Of a DNA stretch of 24,562 bases, positions 1 to 20,503 are shown piece after piece. How positions within the stretch are numbered: the stretch's first letter is position 1; the number at the start of each line of letters is the position of its first letter. Both the position numbers and the translations under genes were made by a program. This stretch comes from a virus: the IMG/VR virus record IMGVR_UViG_3300035702_000234, positions 1 through 24,562 of that record; one strand, written 5' to 3'. Below the pieces are notes generated by a model. It worked only from the letters and a program-made list of their open reading frames with translations. It searched no databases and was not told where the DNA came from.

Positions 1-976
1 GTGTAGGCGTTGGTGTCACAGTAGGTGTCACAGTAGGTGTAATTGTCGTCGTTGGGGTTAGCTGCGGCGTCGAAGTAGGTGTCGCAGTAGCAGTAACCGT
101 TGGTGTCACAGTAGGTGTAATTGTCGTCGTTGGGGTTAGCTGCGGCGTCGAAGTAGGGTCCTGTGTACTCGTTGGTGTCAACGTTGGTGTCACTGTTGGT
201 GTCAACGAAATAGTAGCCGTCACAGTTGGTGTAACCGTTGCTGTTTGCGTTACGGTCGGGGTCACAGTTGGTGTCAACGAAATAGTAGCCGTCACAGTTG
301 GTGTAACCGTTGCTGTTTGCGTTACGGTTGGTGTAACCGTTGCAGTGTTAGTTGGTGTCAACGTTGGTGTAACCGTGTTCGTTGGCGTCAACGCTGGTGT
401 GGCCGTGTTCGTTGGCGTCACAGTCGCTGTACGCGTCACCGTTGGTGTTGGTGTTGGCGTAACCGCAGACGATGATGGTGTAACACTTGGTGTAAGTGAA
501 GAAGTCGGAGATGGTGTGACTTGTGGTGATTCCACAAAGCAAGTCCCACCCTCTTGAAGATTAGAATCGACTTGCGGCGCAATCCGTGGTGCCGTTACAT
601 TATTTTTAACCTGTAATGCAACCCAAGAAGTTTTGAATATCTCTTTAAACTTCATTTTGTTTACAAATGCATCTTGTAATACCTGAAAGAAAATATAGTT
701 TACATCTTCGACCTGAAAGTTATCATAAATTGCACCCATTGTTGCAATTATATCTTCGGGAGTATCAAAGTTAACCTGAGTATTAACGAACGTATCGATA
801 TCAATACCGACAAAATTACGATTTGTGTTCGTGAGTATAGCTACGATAGTAGACTTAGCCAAATCCGGGTCAACAAAAATCTGTTCAGGTCCCAGACCAA
901 AGCGAGTGTCTGTCCCAAACATTTCATCATAGAGTACTCGCTCTAGAGTTGGTAGAATTTTTGTCTGATCAGTCAT
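1..976 (-). CDS. Thr/Pro-repeat structural protein, C-terminus beyond window
   Basis: The minus-strand frame stays open from an ATG at 976 to the left edge, so only the first 325 residues are visible. The start is fixed by a TAATG overlap with the stop of the giant upstream gene. Residues 1 to about 145 look globular (begins [20 protein letters not shown]) and match no family I recognise. From about residue 154 the protein is almost entirely Thr-x-Thr-Pro units (TVTPT, TLTPT, TNTATPA), at least 170 residues without a stop, in an unbroken frame despite long DNA repeats. Last in the baseplate cassette, it is probably a virion surface or fibre-like component in which the Thr/Pro stretch is an extended stalk; that role is inferred from position and composition only. 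The ribosome binding site is weak, so translation is probably coupled to the upstream gene. Confidence 0.8.
24..79. repeat. 56-bp direct repeat, copy 1
   Basis: This segment is identical base for base to 102-157. The two copies are 78 bases apart, which is 26 codons, so the minus-strand Thr/Pro frame is kept. It lies inside the Thr/Pro-repeat gene. Confidence 0.85.
102..157. repeat. 56-bp direct repeat, copy 2
   Basis: Second copy of the repeat at 24-79. Identity at the DNA level, not just the protein level, suggests a recent duplication or slippage event within the Thr/Pro-coding stretch. Confidence 0.85.
195..256. repeat. 62-bp direct repeat, copy 1
   Basis: Identical to 267-328. The offset is 72 bases (24 codons), so the reading frame of the Thr/Pro-repeat gene is preserved. 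Its sequence differs from the 56-bp repeat nearby, so at least two separate duplications have occurred. Confidence 0.85.
267..328. repeat. 62-bp direct repeat, copy 2
   Basis: Second copy of the repeat at 195-256, inside the Thr/Pro-coding region of the left-edge gene. Confidence 0.85.
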
Positions 977-3900
977 TATTGAATCCGTTTAATCGGGACG
1001 CCGCGAACTTTGCCACCACCACTATCACCAGAGACATTTGCACTAAACGAGAAATCCCTACTTAGGACTATAGCCCCACCAGATTTTTCTCTTATCTGCA
1101 CCGTACCACTTACCGCACGAGCACCAATACCATTTTGTGTTATCGACCATGCAGGGCTGAATGTTCCGAGGTCTATCCAAGTATTTATTGCACTTCCACT
1201 GGTAAATGCCCCGCTACTAACCGAAACCCTGATTTCATATGGGCTACTCGGGAAACCAATTGGCTTCATCCATTTATAACGTTCAACACCTCTAACAATT
1301 ACAGAATTTTCCGGGTTAATCCCAGTACGTGTAAATTGCATGCCTGTGCTGGCCGGTTGCGGATCGAACACATTGTGTTGGTCAATAATATCTCCCGAAT
1401 ATACTGTACCTGTTGACGGGAAGAACAAACCAAGAACCTCTGCAGGTGACGGTGTTGGTGAAACAACCGGTGTTCTCGATGGTGTAACCGGTGGTGTAGG
1501 AGCAGGCGTCGAAGTTGGCCCCGGTGTGTTGGGTGGCGTAACCGGTGGTGTTGTCGTAGGGTTCGGAGTTACGGTTGGCGTTGCCTGCTGTGTCGGCGTA
1601 GGGAACGGCGTACCCGTATTTGATGGGGTAGGCGTAGGTGTCTGCGTCCCAACAACTCCAGATGGTGATGGTGATACGGTTGGTGTAATACTCGGTGTTG
1701 GAGTAGGCGTAATATCCAACAATGGTGAGCCATCGTATTGGAATCCGAGAATAGACTCAGTGATAGCATTCCATAGAATGCGGTCAATCTTGGTAAACTG
1801 CTTCTCTCGGAATAGTTTCCACTGCCAATGAAGGTTCTTTAATTGAAGCTCACTTACACTGGGATCATTATTAGCCAAGTTATCACGTAACGTGAAGTCT
1901 CGTGTAAATCGCAACGTATATGCATCATCCGCTCGTACACGCTCTGCCAGCCCTTTAATAATTAGCTGGTTGTAGACAAACGGGAACTCATAAGACACGG
2001 TGTCTTCGCGCTTTGGACTGTTTGTGTCAAACAAATCAGCATAAGAAGTAGCTGTTAGGTCCACAACGTTGTTCGGAATCATATACGGGGTTGGTATATT
2101 CTCGAACTGCTCACGCATCGTCTTAAGCGTGGTACTTCCTAGTGGTCCACCCTTTACTTGAATATCAGACAAACGGTTCTCTACCCAGAAATAATAAGTG
2201 AATTTCTCGTTTCCGGTCACAGGATCGATACGGTTAATCGTTGAGTATGGTGTGTCAAGTTTATATGATACATTGTCTAGTTGTAACTGCGTTGGAACCG
2301 TAGCAGGTAGAACAATATGAATTAGTTTACCCTGTGGCAATCCAGTTCCAGTTACCACATTCCCTGCGTATGTGTCGAAATCGGCATTAGTAGAGAACTG
2401 CGTTGACTCTACATATTTACCGTCTACATACACGTCCACATCCACGTCAAACGAAAGGCCCGATGCGCTATATGACGTAGATATCACCAAGTTGGTCGGT
2501 ACCGTAGAATCGATCATTTCCGCAACAAAATCAAAATGTTGGTTGCGTTCTTCGACCCAGACAGGTGCAAGTGTAGTTCCGTCATTACGATAAACAACCT
2601 TACGTGCTTGCCCCGTTTTTCTATCATTGATCGGCAATAGGCCAGCGCTGTTTTGCTCGGATGAGAGTTGATCGTACTCCACTGGGAGAACATCGGATTC
2701 CGTCCATTGGTATAGTTTAATTGTGGCCCAATCGGCTAGCTTGCCCCAATTTCGCAGTCTAATATTCAAATCACTTTGGACATTTGGATCATCAAATGGT
2801 AGATGCCCCTCGGAGTTGATATCGAACCACACATTGTTATTGAAACGTGAATCCCAAACATTGTTAGCAGCAGAGACTGCATTTGCAATCGGGTTGCTGT
2901 ATCCAGCCGGGTCTTCATCCACCCTGAAGTTGACGGGATAGATTGCACGTGAGTAGTACTGTTGGCGACGAGGATTCCAGAAAGGAACTTCAGTTTCTAC
3001 TTCGCCCGCTCGCGTGTTTATTATCTTAGCTGGGTTTTGGGCATCATAGTTATATGCCAGTGTACTCACATTGGTTGGAGTATCACCAGAATTCACCGGA
3101 AGGTTGATAAATCTAATTAGAGTGTTTGTAACAAACTCGTAATCAACGCCTTCTACTAGCTGTTGGTATACAACGGGTGGCCCAATAGATGATACAAAAT
3201 TGATAAATGCCGCGTCGGCTGCTGCTTCAAGCAACAAATAATCATCCCCATCGAAATCAAAATAATTATCGTTTGCTCGTACATCTTCAATTCTTTCAAT
3301 AATGCGCGGATTAACATAGAATCTGTCACGCGGCGATATTTTTTCCACCTGATCTGGCTGCTCGAACCATCTTGATTCGTTGTCAATTTCAACTGCTTCA
3401 AATGATGTGTCAGAAGCTGTACCAAATGGTTCAACGAATTCAAGGCGTAGTTCTTTGCGTATAACGTCTCGGCCAGATAGTTTTAGTTCTGGATATATTT
3501 TCTGCTTAGAATCTCCAAAGCAATCAATTCGGTATGTCCAGAATTCATCTACTTCAATGTTGTCGTATGATATCTGATTTGTAAAGGCATTAGCTGCAAA
3601 GTTGGTTCCTTTCTTCTGAATCAAGCCACGGTAAAACAGGAATTGTGATTTATCGGTGATGCCAAGATCATCCGCATAATCGTAAGGTCCGTCGTATCCT
3701 AGAGATTTACGGACGTTTTCTACAATAACTTCACCTTCTTTGCTCTGCGTGGTACTGTATGCAAAGCGCAAAGACTCAATTGCTGATTCAATATTCTGCA
3801 CCTGACCACGATCAAGGATAACGTTTCCGCCAACATTTGGGCGTAGTGTGAATTTATCTTGCTTATCGAACTCAACATCAAATCTAGGAGTGTTGATACC

Positions 3901-6900
3901 CAAAAATGGATCGTAAATCAATATACCATTGACGCTATAATTCTGGAATTGCAAAATATGCTCATATCCGTCAAAGAACAAATGCATACCGCTCATGTAT
4001 CTGGCAGTAGTTGTGTTGGTATCGTTTGACGCCACGCGTTGACCGGTTAGCTCAATTTGCGATCTTTCATCTTTACGATATACTGCAACATCTGTAATTC
4101 CAAGATTTCTACCATCCTGATCATATACTCGCTGATTGGTGAGTACATCTAGATCAGAACCAGTCAGTACATTGGATAAAACACCAGTATCATGATCAAT
4201 GAATATCATATTCTTGTGTGGATTTAGATCAATAGATGGGAATCTCTTTGTCTCTGGTGAAATTCTAATACTCAGCGCACCTTCACCGTTATCAGTAAAC
4301 GTTAGAGCATTGCCTTTAACCGCAGCTGAACGCGAAGCCGCCAATTGTAATATACCCGGAGTAGCCGTGCGAATTACGTAGTATCCAATAGTATCCGCAA
4401 TTGGATTGTTGAACTCGGTTGGGAGTGTTCCCTTGCTACTGTTGAACGTTACTCGTGTCCCAGTATTCCATGCAATAGTCTCTTGACTAGTAAAGTTATT
4501 GGAAATATTGTTTGGAGCAATTGCGTATTCTTCGCGAATCTCCTGTCCTGTTCGTCTCGCGGTATATAGGAATTCGATCAAATATTCGGTTTCTAGTTGC
4601 CAATTATATTCACGCCCGGTTGTAGGGTCACTATTATTGCCGTCGGGGTTTGCGTAAACAAAACCAATACTCTCAAGATACGCAGAATATCCGTTTAGGA
4701 AATCGATACAGTTCTGTATACCAGAAATTGTTACCGGAGTGGGTAACGTGCGTACTATTCGGTTATCGACGTAATGCTGTTTCCAATACGCCAATACTTC
4801 ACGAGCTTGGAATGCTGTGAACGTGTTCTTAATTCGACCAACGTAGAAAATACCGTCAGGGACACTAGTTGGGGTAATGGGGTTTCCATTTAATGCACCA
4901 TCACGTGTAGTGGAAAGCTTGAACTCTCGATCATTTACACGTATCATGTAGAATAGGTCAGTTTCATTAAATGGTGCGGGTAGAGAAGTATTTGTACCCC
5001 AAGATAGTCCGGTGCCCGTAACCCATGAATCCGGTAATGTAACTGCGGTGTCAGGCTCAATAACCCCGTCGATTACGCTGTTTGAAATGCTAATATTTTC
5101 CTGAACTTCAATGCGTGTTAATTGACTTTCAGTATTATATGATGCTACAACTACAGTATATGTGCCGTTGAAATTAGTAGAGTCTTTAATTTCGAATGTT
5201 GTGTTGCGATTAAAATACTGCACAAGATCGTCTTCGACATAGAATACCTTGTTGAATTTGATAAAGTTAAACTGATTACCACTAGTCCCCTGATAGTTTG
5301 AACTGACAGTAGAAAATAGTCCAGAATCAGTGATTGAGGCAAAGGTACTTCCACCAATTTTATCACTGGCGATATAAAGGTTACCATCCTCAATGAATGC
5401 AGTGCCAGCCGAGCCAAGTTGTGAATTTAGTACGTCAACTAGGTCACCGAATGTTTGTGCATCTTGCCCCAACACAATCAAGTTTACAGTCGTAGTTCCG
5501 TCAAACAATACGCTGGCATAATAAGGTGTAGTATCGTTGGCTAGTTCCGTTGAAACTGTTGGTGCCGCTGTCTCACTATACTGTACTATATCATAGCCGA
5601 AGCTTTGTTCAAGTTCCACTGCCTCAATGTTGAAGCTGAATGTCCTATACGTGTCGTCCCCGGAGGTAACGCGGACTGGATAATTCTGCACGCCGAATGT
5701 CTCGATTGGTCGAGCTACGGGAGATGTGTTTTTGAATTCAACAGTCCAACCAATGCCCTTATCAAACTCAGAAGAGAAGCGCGATGGGGAGGACAGCATT
5801 GTAGCGTTTATACCATCAAGCCATACGTCACGAATTCCCAATGTCTTCTTGAAAATTATGTCTCGATCCTGATCGGTTACATCAAATATATCTGAACCAA
5901 TCTTGATGAAGTTTTGAGTGTTAATGAACGAGCCGAATTGATATGTTAGGGGTGCTTCCCAATCTCGCCACAGATCACGGAACTCGGAGGAAATACCATC
6001 AAACCCACGGTATCTGTTGTAATGAACATACCATTGGTTAAGCCCGCTAGCCTTAAATACGGTGTTACCATTGACAATATCACCATGGAAATTGATGTTA
6101 CGGTGGCTTGCTACCTTATTACTACGGTCGTCTACCTGTAAACATGCAACATCAATAAGTTCAGGCCCAAACGTTTGGTTTAAGAACTTTAGTGGCTGAA
6201 TCTTGAACGCTACAATAAGTTCATCATATAGGCGTTGTGATGAAACCTTCCAATTCCATTCCTCTGGGCCAATTTGACCGAATTCATAACCCGCACTTGG
6301 GGTTACAACGAATTCATTGTTACCCGAATCATGTAAGCTTCGAACAGCTGGATTTGATGAATTGTTACTGTTCCAATATGGCGGTAACAGTGAATCTGGG
6401 AAATACCCGTCTGATGTGTTTGTGCTTTCAATGTTTACTGGAACATAACTATACAGATTTGTAATCTGTGATGGAGTTCCAGTTCCTAAGTTTGTATCAG
6501 GTGCCACTTGACCAATAGGAATAATACCATCAAGTATGTTCGTCCACATAACAGTTTTCCAACGCCGGACGTTTGTTGGGTCGCGGTATTGAGTATCCCA
6601 ATAGTCTGGTTTAGAATCATATCCTTGTAATTTCCATGGCTCCAAGTGCGGATATGGTGTGCGGAACACGGACTCGTATAGCGCTTCCCATGAACTGAAA
6701 ACGGATGTATTATTACCACCAGTTAATGGGTCAACTTGAATGGTCGTGAACCCGTAGTTCCATGTGAACGGGTTGTTCTGGCGGTAACCGGCATTAACGA
6801 ATGCACCCTGTACATTTCTTTCAGCAAGGAATTGGGAGAACCTTTCACGTAATTGTCCATCATATGCACTATCTTCCTGTGTCGTTAAGAAATTGTATTT

Positions 6901-9900
6901 GGACACGAAGTTTTCAGGAAGAGCCTGATCTGACAATAAGTCGTACAAGTCATTTTCAATTTGTAGGAGAATATCCGCCACAAGTAAGGATAGTTCGACT
7001 AGTTCCCACGTTGCAAGGGTGTTGTATCGGTATAGCTTTCTTGTCTTCTCGGTGGTGTTTGTGCGAATTAAAAAGTCACCATTGGCGGCAAGTGTTGGAA
7101 AAGCTTCACCGCTTGATGCAACAACCTGTGTTGTATTATTTGTATTTTTGGAAATTATATTGTACAATAATTCAATTGAAGCTGGACTAAGTTTTACGTC
7201 CTTGCGATGACCATCATGGTGCACTATTTCAAGTATACCTAGTACGTCGTCTCGAACCAAATAAGGTTTTACCTTGGGGGCTAACCCGAGAAATGGTATG
7301 GTTGCGATCCAGTTCTTAACGCCGGTATTAGTCGCTTCGTCAAATGTGGCGCTATCTCCAAACCACTGATCAAGCCTATCATTTTTTTCAAATATATCTT
7401 TAGTGGAGTCAACTACAAATGCAGTAAGCTCAGAAAGGTTGTCAAAACCAGCCTGTGAGAAATAAGAGCCAATATTATCTTCTAGAATCTCACGTAGTGT
7501 AACTTGCCCATTATCATATCGGTCATTTGCAAACTGGATTAGTTCAACTGGGTTGACATTGTTTACAAACATAGCAGACATGAGTGTATCGAACCCATCG
7601 TTATGTTCTTTAATAGTCCCACCCAAACCATAATTTACTGAGTTGTCTAGGTGGAATAAATTAGCAAAGGTATCATTGACAATACCCGGTGCAGATTGAG
7701 CTTGCACAATACTGTTAAAGTGCCTAAACACTTCCGTAAGTCTGATTGTGCTTTTGTTTTCATGCTGCACATTGTAGTATAGCTGGTTCGGGATTTCCCA
7801 AAAACCATCGGCTTGAATTGGTACGTATTGTTCGTTATGGGTTCCGCGTTTCCAAATAGACTGGAACTCGTCATCATATTCACGTAGGTCACGGTATACG
7901 TATAATGCTTCAGTATCTTCGTCCATTAATTCTTGTGCAAATGTGTAATCTCGCGCAACAGGGTCAAACACTATACGTTGATCGATATTGGGCTCGTAAA
8001 CGCCCGTCGAGTCTTCGTTATATACAAATATGCGACTAGCAAAGGTAAATGGACTAAAATCAACATCGTAAATACTAAACCATGGGTATTGTGATCTTTC
8101 AGTTTTTACTTGCTCGATGCGACGATTGTCTACAAGGTTAAACTGTTCAAGACCAGAAGATGTACTGACCGTAACATTCTTACGACCGATATCTTCCAAT
8201 GCATATTCACCAAGCTCAATTCGAACAATGTCGTTTTCACTAATTTCAACATCGGGGTTGAATTGAACTGAGCCCACGAAATCACTCGCAACACCAGAGG
8301 CCATTTCAACAAAATTACCATATTGGCGTTCACCGTTTATGTAAACCCGTAAATCACTTTCTTGGAAATCTTCATACAAACACAAATCGTGTAGCGAACT
8401 ATCAAGTTCCAACAGTGGCCCAAATACAGAGCCAGACCCCGTGACGTATTTGAATTCTTGGAAGTATAAACCGATGATGGTTTCAATAGTTCCGGCAGAT
8501 ATTGTGGACGTGGTGACAACCTCGTCCAGCATCGGGTTTCTTTCTGGCGTGTAACTGGATGCTGCAATGTTAACAATACCTTCAAACTGCCAATGGTATA
8601 CATCTGTGCTTAGCCATGGGTCGCCCTCTGCCGTAAATGTTGGTGCAACAAAAGCACCTACAGGCACGTCAAGTGGGTTTATAATTGGCTCAGCTAGCGT
8701 TACACGGGTTCTGTATCGCTGACCCGGTGCAAGTTGTAAAAACTCAGAGGACAGTACGGTATTGACCCCAGTGTTAGTTCCGAAGTCACCTAACTGAATT
8801 TCAGTCCCCGGCGTTAAGTCATTAGATAAGTTACCAAACTGCTCGCCAAATAGCAATGTGGTAGAATTCGAGAATGAAACTTCGCCACCACTAACTACAC
8901 GAGTGTCAACCAGTTCAAACAACGTAGGTTGAGTATCTGTGGGTGTGTACGATACTGCATCGTTTCTGCGATATCTCCATGCCTTTTCAGCAAAGGAATG
9001 TTCCGACAATTCCAGTAGTGGGAAATATTCAATAATTGGCAATTGTGCTCGGGATTTGCCCGTGAAATTATTGATTTCACTGCGATGAATCCAATTGTTC
9101 TGCTCGGACCAATCATCAGATTGGCGGTAACTTACAAGATGATTATTATTGCTTATATCAACAATAAGGCTGAATCGATCTACAGCTACAGCCCAAGTAG
9201 AGCCATTCCATTGACGAAGTTGGTCGTTTTCGGTATCAAGCCAAAGTTGGCTTACATTGATAGCCGGTGGCGCTGTAGTGAATGAAATATCTTCTAGGCT
9301 ACGACGGCGCAGAATCTGATAAGACACTGTTGGTTCGTTGAAAAATGTTCTTCCCAAATCCAGCAGGTTTGATGTAATTAGGTTCGTGATGGTATATTCA
9401 TCATCGAAACCAGTCCCTGTAATCTTAAGTATATCACCGTCTTGATAAGTACCGTCCAAGAAATCCTTTGACCCACTCGGGTCTGTTAGAAAGCTTGATC
9501 CGAAAGTTGTTGAACCTGTTGACTGTAATAGTAGGAAGTTTCGAGCCCAGATTATATCACCAATGTCAGATTCGTCAAACGTTCCAAATTGGCTTACGGT
9601 GTATGGATTATTACATGCGACGTTGTATTCGGCTTCCACTGAGCGCAGTATTGGCGTCGCACTGATACGTGTCCAGTCAAAGGTACCATCGAGTTCTTGG
9701 TTTAATGTAATCACAGTACGGTTGTTAATTACATCAAACGATGAACTTGCAACGGTCCACATGGTGGTAGGTTGTGATGTTGTGCTGGCTTCGCTGCTGA
9801 ACACATACCCGTTGACAAACAAATTAGTCACATCACTTGCAACGGTGATAGTGTTGTTCAAAGCATTCGTAGTTAGAACTGCTAATTCAGTTTTTGACAA

Positions 9901-10674
9901 TGACACATAGCTGTCATTTACACCTATTTCGATATCGTAATCAGCAACATTAAATGCTACTTCAGTGTAATCCCCAACAACATTGTATGCCGTGGATACT
10001 ACTGGAGCAAATACGGGCACAGTTCCAGTGCCCGATAATACTACAGTCTCACCATCACGGATTGTAGTTGTTTGATTACCGGATACTCGAACAATATTAC
10101 TTGGTTCGTCATATGCCGAAATGCTGTACGTGGGCATCGATGACCCGATACTACGCATGATTTGGGTGCGACGATCTGTAACCCAATTACAAAGGTTCTT
10201 GATAGTAATGTATTGTGGTGGGTTATCGGTGTTACTCGAATCCCAAAAATAGTCTTGGAAGTTGATTAGCTTATCAAGATCGATGGGTGGAATCCAGTTG
10301 AATTGTAGGCTGTTGCCCCATTCGTTGAACTTATCGATATCGACACCAAGCAAACGAAGCCGGTTCATAAAGTCACGGAAAGACATTAACCAATCAACAT
10401 CACCTACTTTATTGTATAGGAGTGGTTGCAGTTGGTTTGCTTGTCGATATGCTGTTGGCTCCGCGATTTGTCGAAGAGTAGAGTCGGTGCTGTTTTCTGT
10501 AGAACCAATTATACCAAATACGCGCTCAACTTCATCCTTTGTTAAAAACCTATTGAATAGGTTATGGTTGAGACCTTCAAGGATTTTTTCATCCTTGATA
10601 TTCTCAGCAGGAAGAAGTTTATTGAGGTCAGTCCTCGGTTTATCGTAGTCCGAAAAATCTTTATGGTTACTCAC
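976..10674 (-). CDS. Giant virion structural protein in the gp7 (baseplate wedge) position
   Basis: One uninterrupted frame of 3232 residues. It starts at a GTG (10674) preceded by GAGGG at good spacing and by a GATAAATA late-promoter box. It directly follows the gp6-like gene, where T4 carries gp7, but T4 gp7 is only about 1030 residues and I see no motif that proves homology. Most of the chain is beta-rich, with phage-structural phrases such as [18 protein letters not shown] near the N-terminal third. About residues 2985-3078 are a Thr/Pro-rich linker ([18 protein letters not shown] and similar), followed by a compact beta-rich C-terminal domain of about 150 residues ending [10 protein letters not shown]. 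It is probably a baseplate wedge or peripheral fibre-network protein of the tail. Its stop overlaps the start of the next gene by one base. It is certainly a real coding sequence; the exact role is open. Confidence 0.85.
1440..1716 (-). repeat. Thr/Pro-rich coding repeat within giant protein
   Basis: This stretch encodes about 90 residues of degenerate TPTP, TPSPSP and TPPVTP units near the C-terminus of the giant protein. It resembles in composition the Thr/Pro tail of the next gene, but the DNA is less exactly repeated. On the plus strand it creates spurious Val/Gly-rich open frames. Confidence 0.75.
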
Positions 10675-10704: not shown

Positions 10705-10712
10705 TATTTATC
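10705..10712 (-). promoter_or_regulatory. T4-type late promoter for giant structural gene
   Basis: The minus strand reads GGGATAAATA here, one base from the T4 late consensus TATAAATA recognised by the phage late sigma factor (gp55 type). It lies 30 bases upstream of the GTG at 10674, leaving room for a short leader and the GAGGG ribosome site. The same GGGATAAATA string precedes the tape measure gene. It sits in the only sizeable gap of the minus-strand cassette. Confidence 0.65.
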
Positions 10713-14069: not shown

Positions 14070-15782
14070 TTACCTTCGCCAGAACAGGCCGCGCTCGATT
14101 TCTTCGTCGCCTTCAACTTTGCCTATCGGCTCTCGGCCCGATGGGTCACCATCTCGAACGATATTGTCATATTGTTCTACCCAGTCCACATTATTAACAT
14201 ATCCATCGTTTTGCTCGTTTTCGGTGTCATCAGAGTCCTGCATCATGACACGCGGCCATGGCTCATGCTGTGGAACACGATTAGTCCATGGTGCCAGTTG
14301 GGTTAAATCTAAGTCAGGGTCAGGATTAGCAGCCAAGCTTTCATCGTTAATTTCGTTGATATCTGGGGTGTCAGTTGGTGATGGTGGCCCACTACCACCA
14401 TGTACATGCGAGTTATACTTGGTTCGTAGGTCGTTTACATCCCCGACAAATTCATCCAAGAAATTCATTAGGTCGTTGACCGTAGTATCTTTGCCAGAAA
14501 CTCTGAAATCTATATTAGGACTATCAAGTTTAATGTTTGCTAGTGATTCAATAAACATTTCACCATCAGATTCAAGGTTTAGCCGTCCCGTCAAATCTAT
14601 ATCGGTATTACCTGCAACATTTGCAAGTAAATTTTGACCAACTGCAATACGCATATTTTCTTCTGTTTTAAGATGTAGATCATTGCTGGCTTGGATGCGG
14701 ATATCACCATCGGGCACAGGGTCACTCAGCGGCGTTTGTCCTCGGGTATCCCCAGCATACATCGAAATGAACTTACCGGCCTTCATGCGGATAGACTCAC
14801 CCGCACTTATGTTGATGTCCTTTTCAGCATGTACGGATAGACGGCGCTCGGCATACAAATCAACGTTACCAGCGTAGTCCATTTCTACCCAACCCTTACC
14901 ACCACTAGTCCCAATATACATGCGCTCATTCGTATCATCAAGTAGAACTTGAGCACCAGCAGTTGTTCGAATCTTTATTCTAGAGTTGAACGGTCTATCA
15001 TCTAATGTGATACTGTGGAATCCCGGTGTAGTAAACGTATACGTCTTAGGGGATAGGAATGATCCGATATTCTTGTATGCGGTCCAATCGTATCCATGTT
15101 CTCCCAGTTTTTCCTTGACCCAATCATCTATCTCATTATTTGAAATTGTGTTATAGTCATCATCAACGTAAGCTTCTTTATCGTTAGATGGGGGTTCGGT
15201 AATCGAGGTTACCTGATAATCAGCACCGCGCGTTTTCCACTCTGCTGAATCTGTTTCCTGCTTGAATGCTTCTTGTAGTTTGTTGTATGTTGGCTGAATA
15301 GGATTACCAGTTGAAGTCAAAGGACCATCAACCTTATCATTTCCGTGTTTGAATCGACCATTACCTATCGTATGCGTTTCTTGGTGACTTGGGAAGCACC
15401 CAATAAAGTATCTGCGTCGTGGGTCACCATTGATGCATCCTACTAGAACATGGGCACCAATTTCAGGGACTGCCCAAAATCCATAGTGCATGGGTCCGTT
15501 ACTTGTAGCGTTATCTTCCATAGAACCACGTACATATTGATTCTGATTAACCGCACCCCCAAACGGTGATACGTATGCACTCCACGGAACATGTAACAGC
15601 TTTTTAGGATCATCGTTATATGCTGGGCAAAAGGCTCTAACTCTGCCCTGCTGCAAAGGATCATCATTATCTACAACAAACCCAATAGACAGATGATTAG
15701 TGAGGTTTGTTAGATCGCCGTTTTCTGCACTGTGTACTATGAAATCATGTAGTAGATTCTCAACACTGGAATCAATCTGCAT
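14070..15782 (-). CDS. 5: gp5-type central spike / hub protein without lysozyme domain
   Basis: A 570-residue protein of the T4 gp5 / VgrG-like spike class, which forms the membrane-piercing needle beneath the tail tube. Residues about 32-130 are an OB-fold: GFVVDNDDPLQQGRVRAFCP, then YGFWAVPEIGAHVLVGCING. Residues about 250-430 are the triple-stranded beta-helix type (SRIKIRTTAGAQVLLDDTNE; short repeats such as INISAGESIRMKAG). A conserved HVHGGSGPPSP follows near 456-468. The T4 lysozyme domain that sits between these parts in T4 gp5 is absent: the linker at about 140-240 is acidic and shows no lysozyme motif. The ATG overlaps the tape measure stop (TAATG), with AAGGAG nine bases upstream. 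Confidence 0.9.
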   Translation of the reverse strand: MQIDSSVENLLHDFIVHSAENGDLTNLTNHLSIGFVVDNDDPLQQGRVRAFCPAYNDDPKKLLHVPWSAYVSPFGGAVNQNQYVRGSMEDNATSNGPMHYGFWAVPEIGAHVLVGCINGDPRRRYFIGCFPSHQETHTIGNGRFKHGNDKVDGPLTSTGNPIQPTYNKLQEAFKQETDSAEWKTRGADYQVTSITEPPSNDKEAYVDDDYNTISNNEIDDWVKEKLGEHGYDWTAYKNIGSFLSPKTYTFTTPGFHSITLDDRPFNSRIKIRTTAGAQVLLDDTNERMYIGTSGGKGWVEMDYAGNVDLYAERRLSVHAEKDINISAGESIRMKAGKFISMYAGDTRGQTPLSDPVPDGDIRIQASNDLHLKTEENMRIAVGQNLLANVAGNTDIDLTGRLNLESDGEMFIESLANIKLDSPNIDFRVSGKDTTVNDLMNFLDEFVGDVNDLRTKYNSHVHGGSGPPSPTDTPDINEINDESLAANPDPDLDLTQLAPWTNRVPQHEPWPRVMMQDSDDTENEQNDGYVNNVDWVEQYDNIVRDGDPSGREPIGKVEGDEEIERGLFWRR

Positions 15783-18058
15783 TAGCCACCACTCCTTGCG
15801 TCCGTTGGTTTTTCAGAACCGCTACCACTTGGATTCAATAAAGACACATTTTCCGGCCTATTATCATTTGCAATCAATCGATCAAGATCTTGTTGTGCTA
15901 ATTCACGTGTTTTGATTTGTTCGGCTAATAATTTTTCTTGTAACTCTTTTAGAATATCAGATTCTGCCTGTTTAATTCGGCTTTCTATTATAACTTCACG
16001 CTCACGGGTTTCACTAATTGTTCGAGTAAGCTCACCCATTTGTGTTTCCGGTACACCAAATAACGCTTCCTCCGTGGCGTATACAGAACTACCAATAGTC
16101 GTATCTTTGCCTATAACGATGTCCAGCAACGGGTCGTTTATAGTGGTGCCCATAAACCAACCCGTTGCTCCCGCTGATGCTATCGCAAGTACAGGGGCAG
16201 CAATTTTGGTAGCAACATTAGCCAGAAGCGTACCGCTAAATACAGAACCGGTCATGCTCTTAAAGAATCCAACAACAGGCAATCCAATTGCTGATTGTGC
16301 TATACCACGCATATAAGAATTTATGGTAGCATTAATACTTTGTAGTTCTGACGTTTGTGACTTTGATTGATTTAATCGAGCGTCTTGTGCTTTAGCAACT
16401 GCTTCCACTTCACCTGACTGTTTACGTCCGCGTAGCATTAATTCTTCTGTTCCTGCACCTTTCATCAAAATATCAATAGCTTGAATGGCGGACATTCCTT
16501 GCATTGTGCCCGATGCGGCGGCATCCATTCGGGAATTAGTTGCAAGCTCACGCATTTGATTATACAACTTATCAAATTCAGCACCATTCCCTTCTCGCTC
16601 TACTGTCTCTCGCGACATAACCCCGCGTTGAATTAGTGCTATTTGTTTAGGGTCCATGCCTAATGACCGTGCCAATTGTCCAGCATACCCTGACTGTACC
16701 AGTCTTTCGGAACCTGTTCGAGTCCGTTGCTTTGCTAAGAATTTGCGATAAGCTATAAATTCATCGATATTGAGACCCACCGATTTCTGCAAAGTAGTAA
16801 ACGAGCTAGTTAACATAGCGATAACATTTTCACCTTGATTCATTGCAAGTGTTAATGCTTGAAAATCTACATCACCTGCAAGTCCTGCCAGTTCAGAAAA
16901 GACTTCATCAGCGAGCATATCACTTGTGGATGCAACATCTTCTACACCCTGCCTCAATGATTCTAGATTCTCCGGCGTTATTTGAACACCCAGCTTACTT
17001 AGAATATTGAAAGATTTCGAAATAGCATCTAGTTGTTGTGCTCCGACGAATCCAAATTCTTTTTCTAATGTATCGCCAAATTGGGCTAATGTCTGTTCGG
17101 TTCCACCTATTGTACCTTGGGTTACATCCAATAGACTAAGTGTTGAATTATTCAACGCTGCCGCAAGTGTTGATCTATTTTTGGCAGCAAATCTAGCAAC
17201 ATCTTGTGCAGATGTACCAAAATCAAGTGTATCAAACTGACCCTCAACCATACCAGTAAAACTATCTGCTAGTCCTTGAAACCGTTTGCCAAGTTCAGCG
17301 GGCAAAAAAAATGATGCCGCAGTATCAGTAAACAAACCCTCAAAAGGATTCCCCTGACCTTGTGGAGAAAAACTCAAACTCGCATTCTGAGCGGTTAGTG
17401 AAACTTGGGAAGATATTCCCGCAAATGCTGTTATTGCCGCCTTCCCTGCTATTTCTAGGTTATCTCTGAATTCTTTAACAGACGAATTTTTCTGTTTTTC
17501 CCGCGTATCATGTCGAGCTTTTGCAGCCGTGTGTGCCCTCTTGCTCGCCACTTCCCTTGCCTTTAATGCGCGTGTGGCGTCTGAATATGCATTCGCTATT
17601 TCTTCGGAACTTGAAGTGGCTGTTAATTTAGAAAAAGAAGAATCAAGATTTACTCCAGCCTGCCTCAAGTTACTCATAGTGGATTGGACTTTCTTAAACA
17701 TGGTTGCAGAACTCTTATTATCGGCAATAAGACCCTGCATGCTCTTGGAATGCTTGTCAAGAACATCAGTCGCCTTTGAATACTTGTCCATAGACTTCTG
17801 GTATCTGTTTTCGGACTCTGCAAGCTTTTGAGTTTCCCGTCTAAGGTTGCTGAAAGCCTTAATCAAACCGGCAGATTCATTTTTTATATCATCTGTGCCG
17901 GTGAATACACCCTTTGTTTTCTTTTCAGTCGCAACATTCCCAAGACCACTTGCTTTTCGGTTCTTAGCAATGTAGTCACTACTTGCACCTGAAACATTAG
18001 ATAGTTGAGATTCTATCTTCTTCAGTGTGGTTAGAATGTCGGTCTGTGTATCAGCCAT
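15782..18058 (-). CDS. Tail tape measure protein
   Basis: A 758-residue protein, mostly helical. The N-terminal ~200 residues are polar, Lys/Gln/Ser-rich and coiled-coil-like; a hydrophobic, Gly/Ala-rich segment at about 583-640 (SAIGLPVVGFF; APVLAIASAGATGWFMGTTI) is typical of the membrane-active part of tape measures; then comes a charged helical stretch with many Glu/Lys. In T4 the corresponding protein is gp29 (590 residues). It sets tail length and is ejected with DNA. The first gene of the minus-strand cassette, it starts at ATG 18058 with AAGGA nine bases upstream and a GATAAATA box before that. It is assigned from composition, segment order and position before the spike; no catalytic motif exists to confirm it. 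Confidence 0.8.
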   Translation of the reverse strand: MADTQTDILTTLKKIESQLSNVSGASSDYIAKNRKASGLGNVATEKKTKGVFTGTDDIKNESAGLIKAFSNLRRETQKLAESENRYQKSMDKYSKATDVLDKHSKSMQGLIADNKSSATMFKKVQSTMSNLRQAGVNLDSSFSKLTATSSSEEIANAYSDATRALKAREVASKRAHTAAKARHDTREKQKNSSVKEFRDNLEIAGKAAITAFAGISSQVSLTAQNASLSFSPQGQGNPFEGLFTDTAASFFLPAELGKRFQGLADSFTGMVEGQFDTLDFGTSAQDVARFAAKNRSTLAAALNNSTLSLLDVTQGTIGGTEQTLAQFGDTLEKEFGFVGAQQLDAISKSFNILSKLGVQITPENLESLRQGVEDVASTSDMLADEVFSELAGLAGDVDFQALTLAMNQGENVIAMLTSSFTTLQKSVGLNIDEFIAYRKFLAKQRTRTGSERLVQSGYAGQLARSLGMDPKQIALIQRGVMSRETVEREGNGAEFDKLYNQMRELATNSRMDAAASGTMQGMSAIQAIDILMKGAGTEELMLRGRKQSGEVEAVAKAQDARLNQSKSQTSELQSINATINSYMRGIAQSAIGLPVVGFFKSMTGSVFSGTLLANVATKIAAPVLAIASAGATGWFMGTTINDPLLDIVIGKDTTIGSSVYATEEALFGVPETQMGELTRTISETREREVIIESRIKQAESDILKELQEKLLAEQIKTRELAQQDLDRLIANDNRPENVSLLNPSGSGSEKPTDARSGG

Positions 18059-18080
18059 GGTTAAAAATCCTTAGTCTCAC

Positions 18081-18088
18081 TATTTATC
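18081..18088 (-). promoter_or_regulatory. T4-type late promoter for tape measure cassette
   Basis: GATAAATA on the minus strand, within GGGATAAATA, the same ten bases as before the giant gene. It is 23 bases upstream of the tape measure ATG, with AAGGA between. There is no -35 element at 17 bases, as expected for T4 late promoters. Confidence 0.65.
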
Positions 18089-18090
18089 CC

Positions 18091-18109
18091 TTTCGACTAT
18101 ATGTCGAAA
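18091..18109. promoter_or_regulatory. 19-bp palindrome between divergent late promoters
   Basis: TTTCGAC and GTCGAAA are perfect 7-base arms around TATAT. It starts two bases from the leftward late box and lies about 20 bases before the rightward one. It is upstream of both genes, so it cannot be a terminator for either; an operator for a shared regulator, or an enhancer-like site, fits better. The function is inferred. Confidence 0.5.
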
Positions 18110-18128
18110 AACACGTATTTGCATGAAA

Positions 18129-18136
18129 GATAAATA
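18129..18136 (+). promoter_or_regulatory. T4-type late promoter for gp26-like operon
   Basis: GATAAATA on the plus strand, 32 bases before the gp26-like ATG at 18169, with AGGAAA in between as ribosome site. It mirrors the box on the opposite strand at 18081-18088, so the two structural operons can be switched on together. Confidence 0.65.
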
Positions 18137-18168
18137 TCATCACACCACAAACAACTCAGGAAAATATA

Positions 18169-19128
18169 ATGTCTGAAATCAACCCACTACTAAGTAAAAT
18201 ACATCTTCCCGGCAGAAGGTTCAGATTACCTTCTATGGGTCTATTTTACAATAACGGTGAAATAGATGAAAGTGTAGTTGATGGTGAAATTCAAGTATTT
18301 TCAATGACTGCCATTGATGAAATCAGTATGCGTTCTCCCGAATATCTGTTCACGGGAGAAGCAATAACTAGGGTATTTAACCGATGCATTCCAGAAATTA
18401 AAAAACCCATGGAATTACTATCAATTGACGTTGACTTCTTGTTGACTGCACTGCGGATAGTATCCTATGGTGATGTTATTCGTATAGCACTTCGCTGTCC
18501 TAAATGTGAAGAGAAGCAGCAGGAAAGAAATAGTGCGAAGCTTGATACCTTCATGGTAGAAATAGAAGAGAAAGCAAAGGAGCAGGAAATAGATTTCGAT
18601 TTGGCTTGGAATAGTCCAGAGGTAGTCGAAAAAGCTGAACGTATAATGTCCAAAATGTCTACATCACATAACCATACTATCAACCTCAATAATATATTGA
18701 CTAACCAAACGAAAGAAGTTACACCGGATGATATGGAAACATATACCGTTACATTAAGTAATGGACAAGTACTGAAAATGTCTCCTTTGAGGTTTAGTAA
18801 CGGTGTAATAGCCCTCCAAACGCAGGACAGCGAAATCAATACTAATTTGGATGCAGCAGAAGATTATGTTAGTTTTGTTATATCCGCGTGTATCGATTCA
18901 ATTGATGGTCATTCAATTAAAGCAGATATTGTTGATTGGGCTAAAAAGCTGCCTATATCGCTAAAGGATGAAATTTCAAACCACATGGAGAAGCAGGGAT
19001 CATTTGGAACCAAGTTTGATTACAACATAGTTTGCCCGGATTGCGAGCTTAAGAGAGAGGGTGATGCTATGCTTAACCCCATAACTTTTTTTACAATACC
19101 CTCAGAATCGACGGGCCGGAAAAGCTAA
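18169..19128 (+). CDS. 26: gp26-like baseplate hub / tail assembly chaperone protein
   Basis: A 319-residue protein resembling the T4 gp26-type baseplate family (recalled as T4_baseplate in Pfam). N-terminal signs are LPSMGLFYNNG and the block SPEYLFTGEAITRVFNRCIP, followed by a helical region. Two cysteine pairs, C110/C113 (CPKC) and C289/C292 (CPDC), could bind one zinc ion. Just after the second pair, codons 307-308 are TTT TTT within seven T residues, where a -1 shift would replace the last 11 residues with an 80-residue extension. In siphophages the paired tail chaperones G and GT are made this way next to the tape measure gene; here the tape measure gene is next door but divergent. AGGAAA precedes the ATG at eight bases or so. 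Family assignment is fairly sure; the exact T4 equivalence is less so. Confidence 0.82.
   Translation: MSEINPLLSKIHLPGRRFRLPSMGLFYNNGEIDESVVDGEIQVFSMTAIDEISMRSPEYLFTGEAITRVFNRCIPEIKKPMELLSIDVDFLLTALRIVSYGDVIRIALRCPKCEEKQQERNSAKLDTFMVEIEEKAKEQEIDFDLAWNSPEVVEKAERIMSKMSTSHNHTINLNNILTNQTKEVTPDDMETYTVTLSNGQVLKMSPLRFSNGVIALQTQDSEINTNLDAAEDYVSFVISACIDSIDGHSIKADIVDWAKKLPISLKDEISNHMEKQGSFGTKFDYNIVCPDCELKREGDAMLNPITFFTIPSESTGRKS
19086..19092 (+). other. Candidate -1 ribosomal frameshift site (T TTT TTT)
   Basis: Seven T residues read T TTT TTT in the gp26-like frame, an ideal X XXY YYZ heptamer. A -1 slip leads into the frame that runs open to 19334. That frame has its previous stop at 19074-19076, so the two frames overlap exactly around the heptamer. 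A small hairpin (19123-19129 with 19136-19142) begins 30 bases downstream, too far for a standard stimulator. Confidence 0.6.
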
Positions 19129-19738: not shown

Positions 19739-20503
19739 ATGGCTACAAATTATTCATCAACACCTTCCGATTTTATAAACAACGAAGTTGCAATTAAAAC
19801 ACCATATAGGCAACCTAATCGTTCGTTTAGAAAACTCTACGGTTATCAAGACCAACTCATCGCAAAATACCAAAGCAACAACCGTACTATTGTGCATAAT
19901 ACTCGGCAATCGGGTGTAACCACGGCTACGTGGGCTTATGTTTTATGGTACAGCATCTACAATTCTGACAAAAATATAGTAATAACATCGACAACTGTTG
20001 ATTCCGCGCGTTCAATCATGGTAAACATAAGAAATGCTTTGGAATCTATGTCTGATGAGTTAACGCCAAAAATAACAACGTTCAATAGAGATAAAGTAGC
20101 ATTTTCTAACGGGTCTTCTATTTCTATTGTAGCCGCTACTGCTAATGCAGTTAGAGGGGAAACCATTTCTTTATTGTGGTGTGATGATTTTGCTTTTTAT
20201 AATAAACAAAATGAATTTTGGGATAATGTTACTCCCGCGTTGGGTATATCTTCCAAAGTTATAATCACATCATGTTTTGGTATTACCACATCAGAAGATA
20301 ATTTGTTTGTTCAAATGTTGCATGATGCGGCTAGTCCCCAAAACCAATATGCTGTACCAATGAATGTTATGTCCCATGTTGTAATTCCGTGGGATGCCCC
20401 ACCTAATCGTAATAATCTTTTTAAAGAAAGTATGATTGCCAATTTGGGGATAGAAAATTGGCTTACAGAGTACGAAGGTAAGTTGGTGACAATTGATGAT
20501 TAA
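19739..20503 (+). CDS. Stand-alone terminase large-subunit-like ATPase domain, degenerate
   Basis: A 254-residue protein that follows the T4 gp17 ATPase domain from the adenine-binding motif (YGYQDQLI, 34-41) through NGSSISIVAATANAVRG (124-140) and the motif III region KVIITSCFG (173-181), to the end of the domain (WLTEYEGKLV), and then stops. The nuclease domain that makes up the rest of gp17 (about 610 residues) is missing. Walker A reads TRQSGVTT (55-62) where gp17 has SRQLGKTT, so Val60 replaces the lysine. Walker B reads LLWCDD (145-150) with Asp where the catalytic glutamate is expected. ATP hydrolysis is therefore doubtful. The frame is intact, with GGAG eight bases before the ATG, so it is not obviously a pseudogene. 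It may be a regulatory paralogue of the packaging motor or half of a split enzyme. Confidence 0.82.
   Translation: MATNYSSTPSDFINNEVAIKTPYRQPNRSFRKLYGYQDQLIAKYQSNNRTIVHNTRQSGVTTATWAYVLWYSIYNSDKNIVITSTTVDSARSIMVNIRNALESMSDELTPKITTFNRDKVAFSNGSSISIVAATANAVRGETISLLWCDDFAFYNKQNEFWDNVTPALGISSKVIITSCFGITTSEDNLFVQMLHDAASPQNQYAVPMNVMSHVVIPWDAPPNRNNLFKESMIANLGIENWLTEYEGKLVTIDD

Follow-up and report, generated by a model that had tools for sequence, protein, structure and literature searches.

Two outward-facing boxes, very probably late promoters of the T4 type, stand between a baseplate hub gene and a probable tape-measure gene in the viral sequence analysed here, and the distance between such boxes, rather than the letters of the spacer, is what related phages keep, although not absolutely. 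Our preferred explanation, offered tentatively, is that the boxes are back-to-back promoters at a selected distance, too close for simultaneous occupation, that would serve either operon at a time, with the palindrome between them being incidental. T4 late promoters have been treated as simple boxes without upstream context. A kept distance with changing letters would mean that promoter geometry is itself selected, and if so, the junction would offer a model, open to direct testing, for the division of late transcription between a phage's hub and its tube ruler.

The divergent gap and its genes

The sequence, hereafter the window, comprises all 24,562 bases of an IMG/VR record. Its baseplate proteins place it among the T4-superfamily jumbo phages. 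Among cultured phages, the nearest relatives found were Xanthomonas phage XacN1, whose gp6-like wedge protein is 58% identical, and the Stenotrophomonas phages CM1 and RAS14, at 57%. Table 1 lists the features of the junction, whose 110-bp gap (18059-18168) is exactly the interval between two divergent ORFs.

Table 1. Features of the hub-gene junction and related sites in the window
Feature	Position	Strand	Remarks
Late box GATAAATA	18081..18088	-	For the leftward probable tape-measure operon; an outward box on this strand is common to many relatives
Late box GATAAATA	18129..18136	+	For the rightward hub gene
Third GATAAATA	10705..10712	-	Precedes a 3232-aa ORF (976-10674)
Spacer, 44 bp	18087..18130	none	Separates the two TAAATA hexamers, measured from inner edge to inner edge
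Inverted repeat TTTCGAC-TATAT-GTCGAAA	18091..18109	none	Perfect 7-5-7; near-identical records only; function doubtful
TGTTTTTCGA	18104..18113	-	At the spacer midpoint, sharing bases with the palindrome's right arm; the window's match to a weak A/T-rich element at the centre
Baseplate hub protein, 319 aa	18169..19128	+	PF12322 / phrog_150; first gene of the rightward unit
Probable tape-measure protein, 758 aa	15782..18058	-	First gene of the leftward operon, followed by a 570-aa spike, gp25 and gp6

The original prediction named a tape-measure operon and a hub-chaperone operon on the two sides of the gap. The hub side stands, its gene belonging to PF12322, the family that holds both T4 gp26 and gp51, while the tape measure is only probable. 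The 758-aa protein gave no PHROG or Pfam match, and solved structures gave weak matches only, largely to helical or coiled-coil proteins (best E 0.003). Its size, these coiled-coil-like matches, a hydrophobic stretch noted by eye in the translation and its place before spike, gp25 and gp6 allow it fairly to be read as a tape measure. Among host genomes, 38 stretches were matched and none of them encodes a relative of the hub.

Two neighbouring genes deserve brief mention. The alignment of the spike (14070-15782, minus strand) runs first along the N-terminal part of XacN1 ORF321 and continues in the C-terminal end of the M23 peptidase ORF322; it looks as if the two had been shortened and fused without the peptidase domain. 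On the plus strand, a 254-aa ORF at 19739-20503, adjoining a RuvC-like ORF, matches only part of terminase large-subunit profiles and may be a split or partial terminase.

Late-type boxes in the window and in relatives

As originally predicted, the same box is found on both strands of the gap, facing outward, with the inverted repeat in between; the letters and the interval given were correct. Three observations make it very probable that the boxes are T4-type late promoters: the TAAATA hexamers begin 28 and 38 nt ahead of the two flanking ORFs, near-identical contigs encode a gp55-like sigma factor, and hub-gene gaps carry the box on each strand in 56 of 65 clusters. Promoters of this type have an 8-bp box close to TATAAATA, to which GATAAATA, present twice in the gap, conforms. 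Its placement at -13 to -6 is by analogy with T4, for which a passage in PMC1524935 gives that position and describes the first base as variable; under the same rule, transcripts would start at 18075 (leftward) and 18142 (rightward). Both boxes precede virion (late) genes at leader distance: the hub has baseplate matches, as do the second, third and fourth genes of the leftward operon. Across the window GATAAATA occurs three times against 1.37 expected, a count reached in 16 of 100 shuffles. All three copies shortly precede an ORF start, and the third supports the box as a late promoter of this phage. Dinucleotide shuffling of the gap gave TAAATA on both strands 14 times in 2000. Neither a terminator-like site (17500-18700) nor an Rfam family (whole window) was found.

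On a genome scale, TAAATA lies at -60 to -10 of 5 of the 11 scored ORFs in the window, 55 of 472 in XacN1 and 57 of 394 in RAS14, as against permuted-hexamer means of 0.9, 15.6 and 17.6; the top permuted hexamers reach 5, 46 and 39, respectively, including some that overlap the box by construction. With the XacN1 late sigma factor (phrog_234) as query, a gp55-like sigma gene was detected in 10 of 13 records. Among those encoding it are G001, G002 and G003, the near-identical contigs that carry this junction. The 24.6-kb window record itself gave no match; the G001 copy of the gene sits about 9 kb further on from the junction, in a part that lies past the end of the window. In nine related genomes, the composition ahead of 543 late boxes outside the hub is flat except for an A just before the hexamer, so these boxes have no conserved upstream (-35) element; the hub junction may be an exception. 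For T4, a passage in PMC2988020 likewise describes late promoters that have no -35 element and need only the box.

The activation machinery of T4 may differ in these phages. Its sliding-clamp families, PF02916 and PF09116, matched T4 alone among ten records, three of the nine others being short fragments and a diverged clamp being able to escape such a search; and for the related jumbo phage CBB, the relevant part of PMC5259590 reports no gp33 or gp45 homologue. The same part reports a T4-like late motif at 35 places in the CBB genome. The records in which neither clamp family matched are XacN1, RAS14, G015, G016, G018, G022 and G001-G003, several of which have a gp55-like sigma; late transcription there may use a diverged clamp or none.

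Hub-gene gaps were gathered from three viral_contigs scans with hub alignments, one with a gp6 alignment, and cultured phages, which yielded 89 different sequences; at 70% identity these form 65 clusters. Cultured phages are represented by a sample, namely the junctions of 12 phages from hub searches (64 and 61 records matched) plus T4. Of the 56 clusters with TAAATA on each strand, 39 have the boxes outward (T4 is counted here, its boxes overlapping), 14 have them crossed, that is, face to face, and three have both kinds; in the other nine, five have a minus box only, three a plus box only and one has none. Counted by sequence, boxes on both strands occur in 75 of 84 distinct sequences (contigs plus four cultured phages, with L068 and L067 each entered in two lengths) versus a shuffle mean of 7.7. 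The proposal that two late-type boxes serve the hub gene and the probable tape-measure operon is supported, and a box on each strand of a divergent hub gap recurs in phages as far apart as T4 and the jumbo phages. For the contigs, a long open frame, rather than a family match, identified the leftward neighbour; Atu_ph07 has a different small gene in this place. Left out of the count are Vibrio phage 2.275 and Listeria phage LIS04, where the hub gene has no divergent neighbour. ORF starts were set by script, mostly at the first ATG of the open frame, so that some leaders and the box-less gap (L103) may be mis-set, and the lineages sampled are not fully independent.

Crossed boxes lie 8-14 bp apart in 10 of the 14 crossed clusters and 26 bp apart in CBB. 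The ten are L104, L108, L185, L186, L188, L189, L193, PA5oct (L058), XaC1 (L165) and Munch (L167). By the T4 rule the start sites of such pairs would nearly coincide, as in a single-bubble bidirectional late promoter.

Distance, symmetry and letters of the spacer

In 40 distinct outward junctions the median distance between inner box edges is 41 bp, with a median absolute deviation of 2.5, versus 4.5 for either leader. Spacings of 39-46 bp account for 24 junctions, the window's 44 bp among them, and those of 29-33 bp for eight; none falls at 34-38, three exceed 50 and five are below 29. This set leaves out L070, which resembles L069, and RAS14, which resembles XacN1. Where one gap held several boxes, the closest outward pair was taken (in the second set, at least 15 bp apart, which 12 of its 34 gaps did not provide); L097, L100 and L227 are consequently counted at 30, 30 and 19 bp though pairs at 40-42 bp are also present. 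Three junctions were kept despite short leaders: L192 (0 nt), L105 (5 nt) and L101 (7 nt).

The hub spacings looked quantised (29-33, 39-46 and 52-56 bp), with a resultant of 0.49 at 10.5 bp and a jitter p below 2e-4, and the first 12 non-hub pairs leaned toward the same phase (Rayleigh p 0.07, directed p 0.03). Helical phasing was nevertheless rejected: six new pairs from Phosso, Atu_ph07 and G016 did not follow it (p 0.97 and 0.59 in the Rayleigh and directed tests), and all 18 non-hub pairs gave p 0.21 and 0.09. These three genomes depart from the choice fixed in advance, which was G016, G019 and one of Phosso, PBECO4 or T4. In this set a 39-bp XacN1 pair was kept with a 14-nt leader (limit 15-50 nt), and a 6-bp G018 pair, being below 15 bp, was excluded.

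It is quite possible that the junction holds nothing more than two independent late promoters fitting a short gap, their distance and the palindrome having no function beyond compactness. The gaps are indeed short (median 107 bp), the leader lengths are themselves clustered, with 20 and 19 of 40 in the densest 8-bp interval, and the spacer letters mostly differ between clusters. Against this, although not decisively, permuted leader lengths fail to reproduce the tight spacing: the densest 5-bp interval holds 21 of the 40 junctions, versus a mean of 7.3 with leader lengths permuted and a maximum of 15 in 20,000 trials (p 5e-5). A control junction within the same genomes also speaks against compactness as the whole explanation. 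The tail-tube-type divergent late junction, between a tail tube gene and an unknown gene, spans 23 to 75 bp (XacN1 23, RAS14 23, G015 63, G022 63, G018 43, G016 75), whereas the hub spacings are 32, 32, 43, 43, 43 and 41 bp in the same order. Ten genomes were scanned for this control and the other four had no tail-tube-type pair passing the filter; the tail-tube gene was identified by family search in XacN1 and matched by size and arrangement in the other five.

The palindrome was originally proposed as one site coordinating both operons, and a related but very unlikely reading makes it the operator of a dimeric regulator that couples them, with letters co-evolving by lineage. An inverted repeat this good or better arises between the boxes with p about 0.03 in shuffles, in a window that holds 15 perfect inverted-repeat hits at 14 places (arms of 7 or more, loop 3-8). 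Inverted repeats are present between the boxes of some other lineages, strikingly centred and of other letters in RAS14 (7-bp arms) and contig L063 (8-bp arms). Symmetry about the midpoint was significant in the first 20 junctions (combined p 4e-4; p 0.001 for the 17 left after thinning), and GCAC-N5-TAAATA flanks the hub junction on both sides in XacN1 and RAS14, with one other place in the two genomes. The centred symmetry disappeared in 22 previously unused outward junctions (p 0.98 by local score, 0.51 by total pairs), and the uncentred test, for the best repeat anywhere between the boxes, gave only p 0.055 for 18 outward junctions of the first set together. In the window, the palindrome's centre lies 8.5 bp from the midpoint between the boxes and the centred test gives p 0.26; the term mirror-image used in the original prediction therefore suits the boxes better than the palindrome. 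The conservation in relatives on which that prediction depended did not materialise, since every one of the 18 loci, out of 338, at which the letters occur represents this junction, either in the window or in three near-identical contigs (2 differences in 310 aligned columns), and a viral_contigs scan for box plus palindrome returned the same three contigs. Nor does the palindrome sit beside other late boxes in the window, where it has one copy and its half-sites, at 2374 and 18625, lie inside ORFs. Mirror symmetry as a general property of the spacer was accordingly rejected, and so was the palindrome as the likely coordinating element. The letters are probably incidental to this lineage; an inverted repeat that catches the eye between genuine promoters can be no more than a bystander. 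GCAC-N5-TAAATA, occurring once elsewhere in XacN1 and RAS14, was also rejected as a general extended late promoter.

A further reading, improbable but better placed than the operator, is that the spacing is fixed by a central element, an A/T-rich tract plus CAC/CG, which lies at the midpoint and is used by both promoters in common, either in a -35-like role or to bend the DNA. When 37 outward spacers (those of 25 bp or more) were searched on two strands for motifs, with position left out of account, TGtgTTTcAc emerged with a log-likelihood of 57.6, versus 37.2 +/- 2.5 and a maximum of 41.9 in 20 shuffles, a comparison that favours the real set in that it had 15 restarts and the shuffles 8. Motifs trained on the first set scored the second with p 0.003 at all three widths, centred at two of them. 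Runs of four or more A or T near the midpoint occur in 12 of 24 spacers of 39-46 bp versus 3.5 expected, and in 12 of 37 versus 5.8 overall. A separate pattern test covered 39 spacers of 19 bp or more, with patterns chosen after the data were seen. Such an element would be special to the hub gap because composition is flat at the 543 other late boxes. On the other side, a one-strand search at width 10 (45.1) fell below the best shuffle (47.4), the reverse direction of training and testing gave p 0.003, 0.013 and 0.126 with no significant centring at any width, and the two halves yielded different letters. Residual homology could explain part of the signal, and the T4 late promoters described in the passage of PMC2988020 need no upstream element. 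The A/T-rich element near the midpoint is partly cross-validated and is best treated as a lead.

Possible use of the paired promoters

In the preferred explanation, that of back-to-back promoters at a selected distance, RNA polymerase carrying a gp55-like sigma would start transcription leftward at one box and rightward at the other, and selection would hold the pair at about 42 bp between inner edges, or about 65 bp from one predicted start site to the other. Two promoter complexes placed so close should overlap; if a complex reaches about -40, the overlap in the window would be about 14 bp. Because the complexes should overlap, one late-promoter island would act at any one time for the hub gene or for the probable tape-measure operon, and in this way might balance the two; such exclusion is suggested by the 44-bp spacer together with general footprint sizes. 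In T4 the sliding clamp would add 13 bp to each footprint, according to a passage in PMC2988020, but it was dropped from the proposed geometry since PF02916 and PF09116 were found in T4 only. In the crossed lineages the start sites would lie within a few bases of each other, and in either geometry a single polymerase would be able to open at once. Several findings tell against the preferred explanation: the outward junctions at other distances (eight at 29-33 bp and eight elsewhere), the nine clusters that lack a box on one or both strands, the hub genes of Vibrio phage 2.275 and Listeria phage LIS04, and the clamp result, which lowered confidence in it somewhat.

A wider proposal is possible but doubtful, namely that the hub / tape-measure gap of the T4 superfamily is a geometrically fixed bidirectional late promoter, either back to back at about 42 bp or face to face with nearly coinciding starts, where one polymerase at a time would share late transcription between tail parts that must be made in proportion.

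The T4 gene 26 / gene 51 junction resembles the window in having a divergent PF12322 hub gene and late boxes on both strands of the gap, but its boxes overlap in a 50-bp gap with PF12322 paralogues on both sides, whereas those of the window are 44 bp apart with a probable tape measure leftward. The hub junctions of XacN1 and RAS14 share the divergent order and the outward TAAATA boxes; they differ in their 32-bp spacer and another inverted repeat, and the gene that comes first on their leftward side is smaller. Crossed hub junctions (PA5oct, Munch, XaC1, CBB and marine contigs) likewise have one late box per strand, although there the boxes face each other at the short distances given above. 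In bacterial bidirectional promoters one -10 element is shared by both directions. Such promoters, which arise from promoter-sequence symmetry, also place two opposite promoters on one stretch of DNA; as described in part of PMC10268837, their key elements read both ways, whereas the window has two separate boxes at a kept distance. Among the titles and abstract openings listed by searches of an open-access library for divergent, overlapping, bidirectional or back-to-back late promoters, none described this arrangement; earlier papers on T4 could well have covered the gene 26 / 51 promoters.

Three observations on the compared sequences fall outside the argument above. In XacN1 (AP018399.1) the same ORF series and gap sequences appear at about 1-66,000 and 319,000-384,670; since both record ends share them, a terminal repeat of roughly 66 kb is suggested. 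In marine-type contigs (L109-L155, for example L131, and also L187), AACT(A/T)CGTAGTT is kept shortly before the plus late box, and some of these gaps form the perfect 12-bp palindrome AACTACGTAGTT. Finally, the marine element CTNCGTAGTTA was found in all of 10 records, in one or two copies. A second copy is present in six of them, and in five of those six (L158, L159, L160, L161 and L163) it lies about 33 nt before another TAAATA, which precedes a gene starting MATLVSP that may be the tail sheath.
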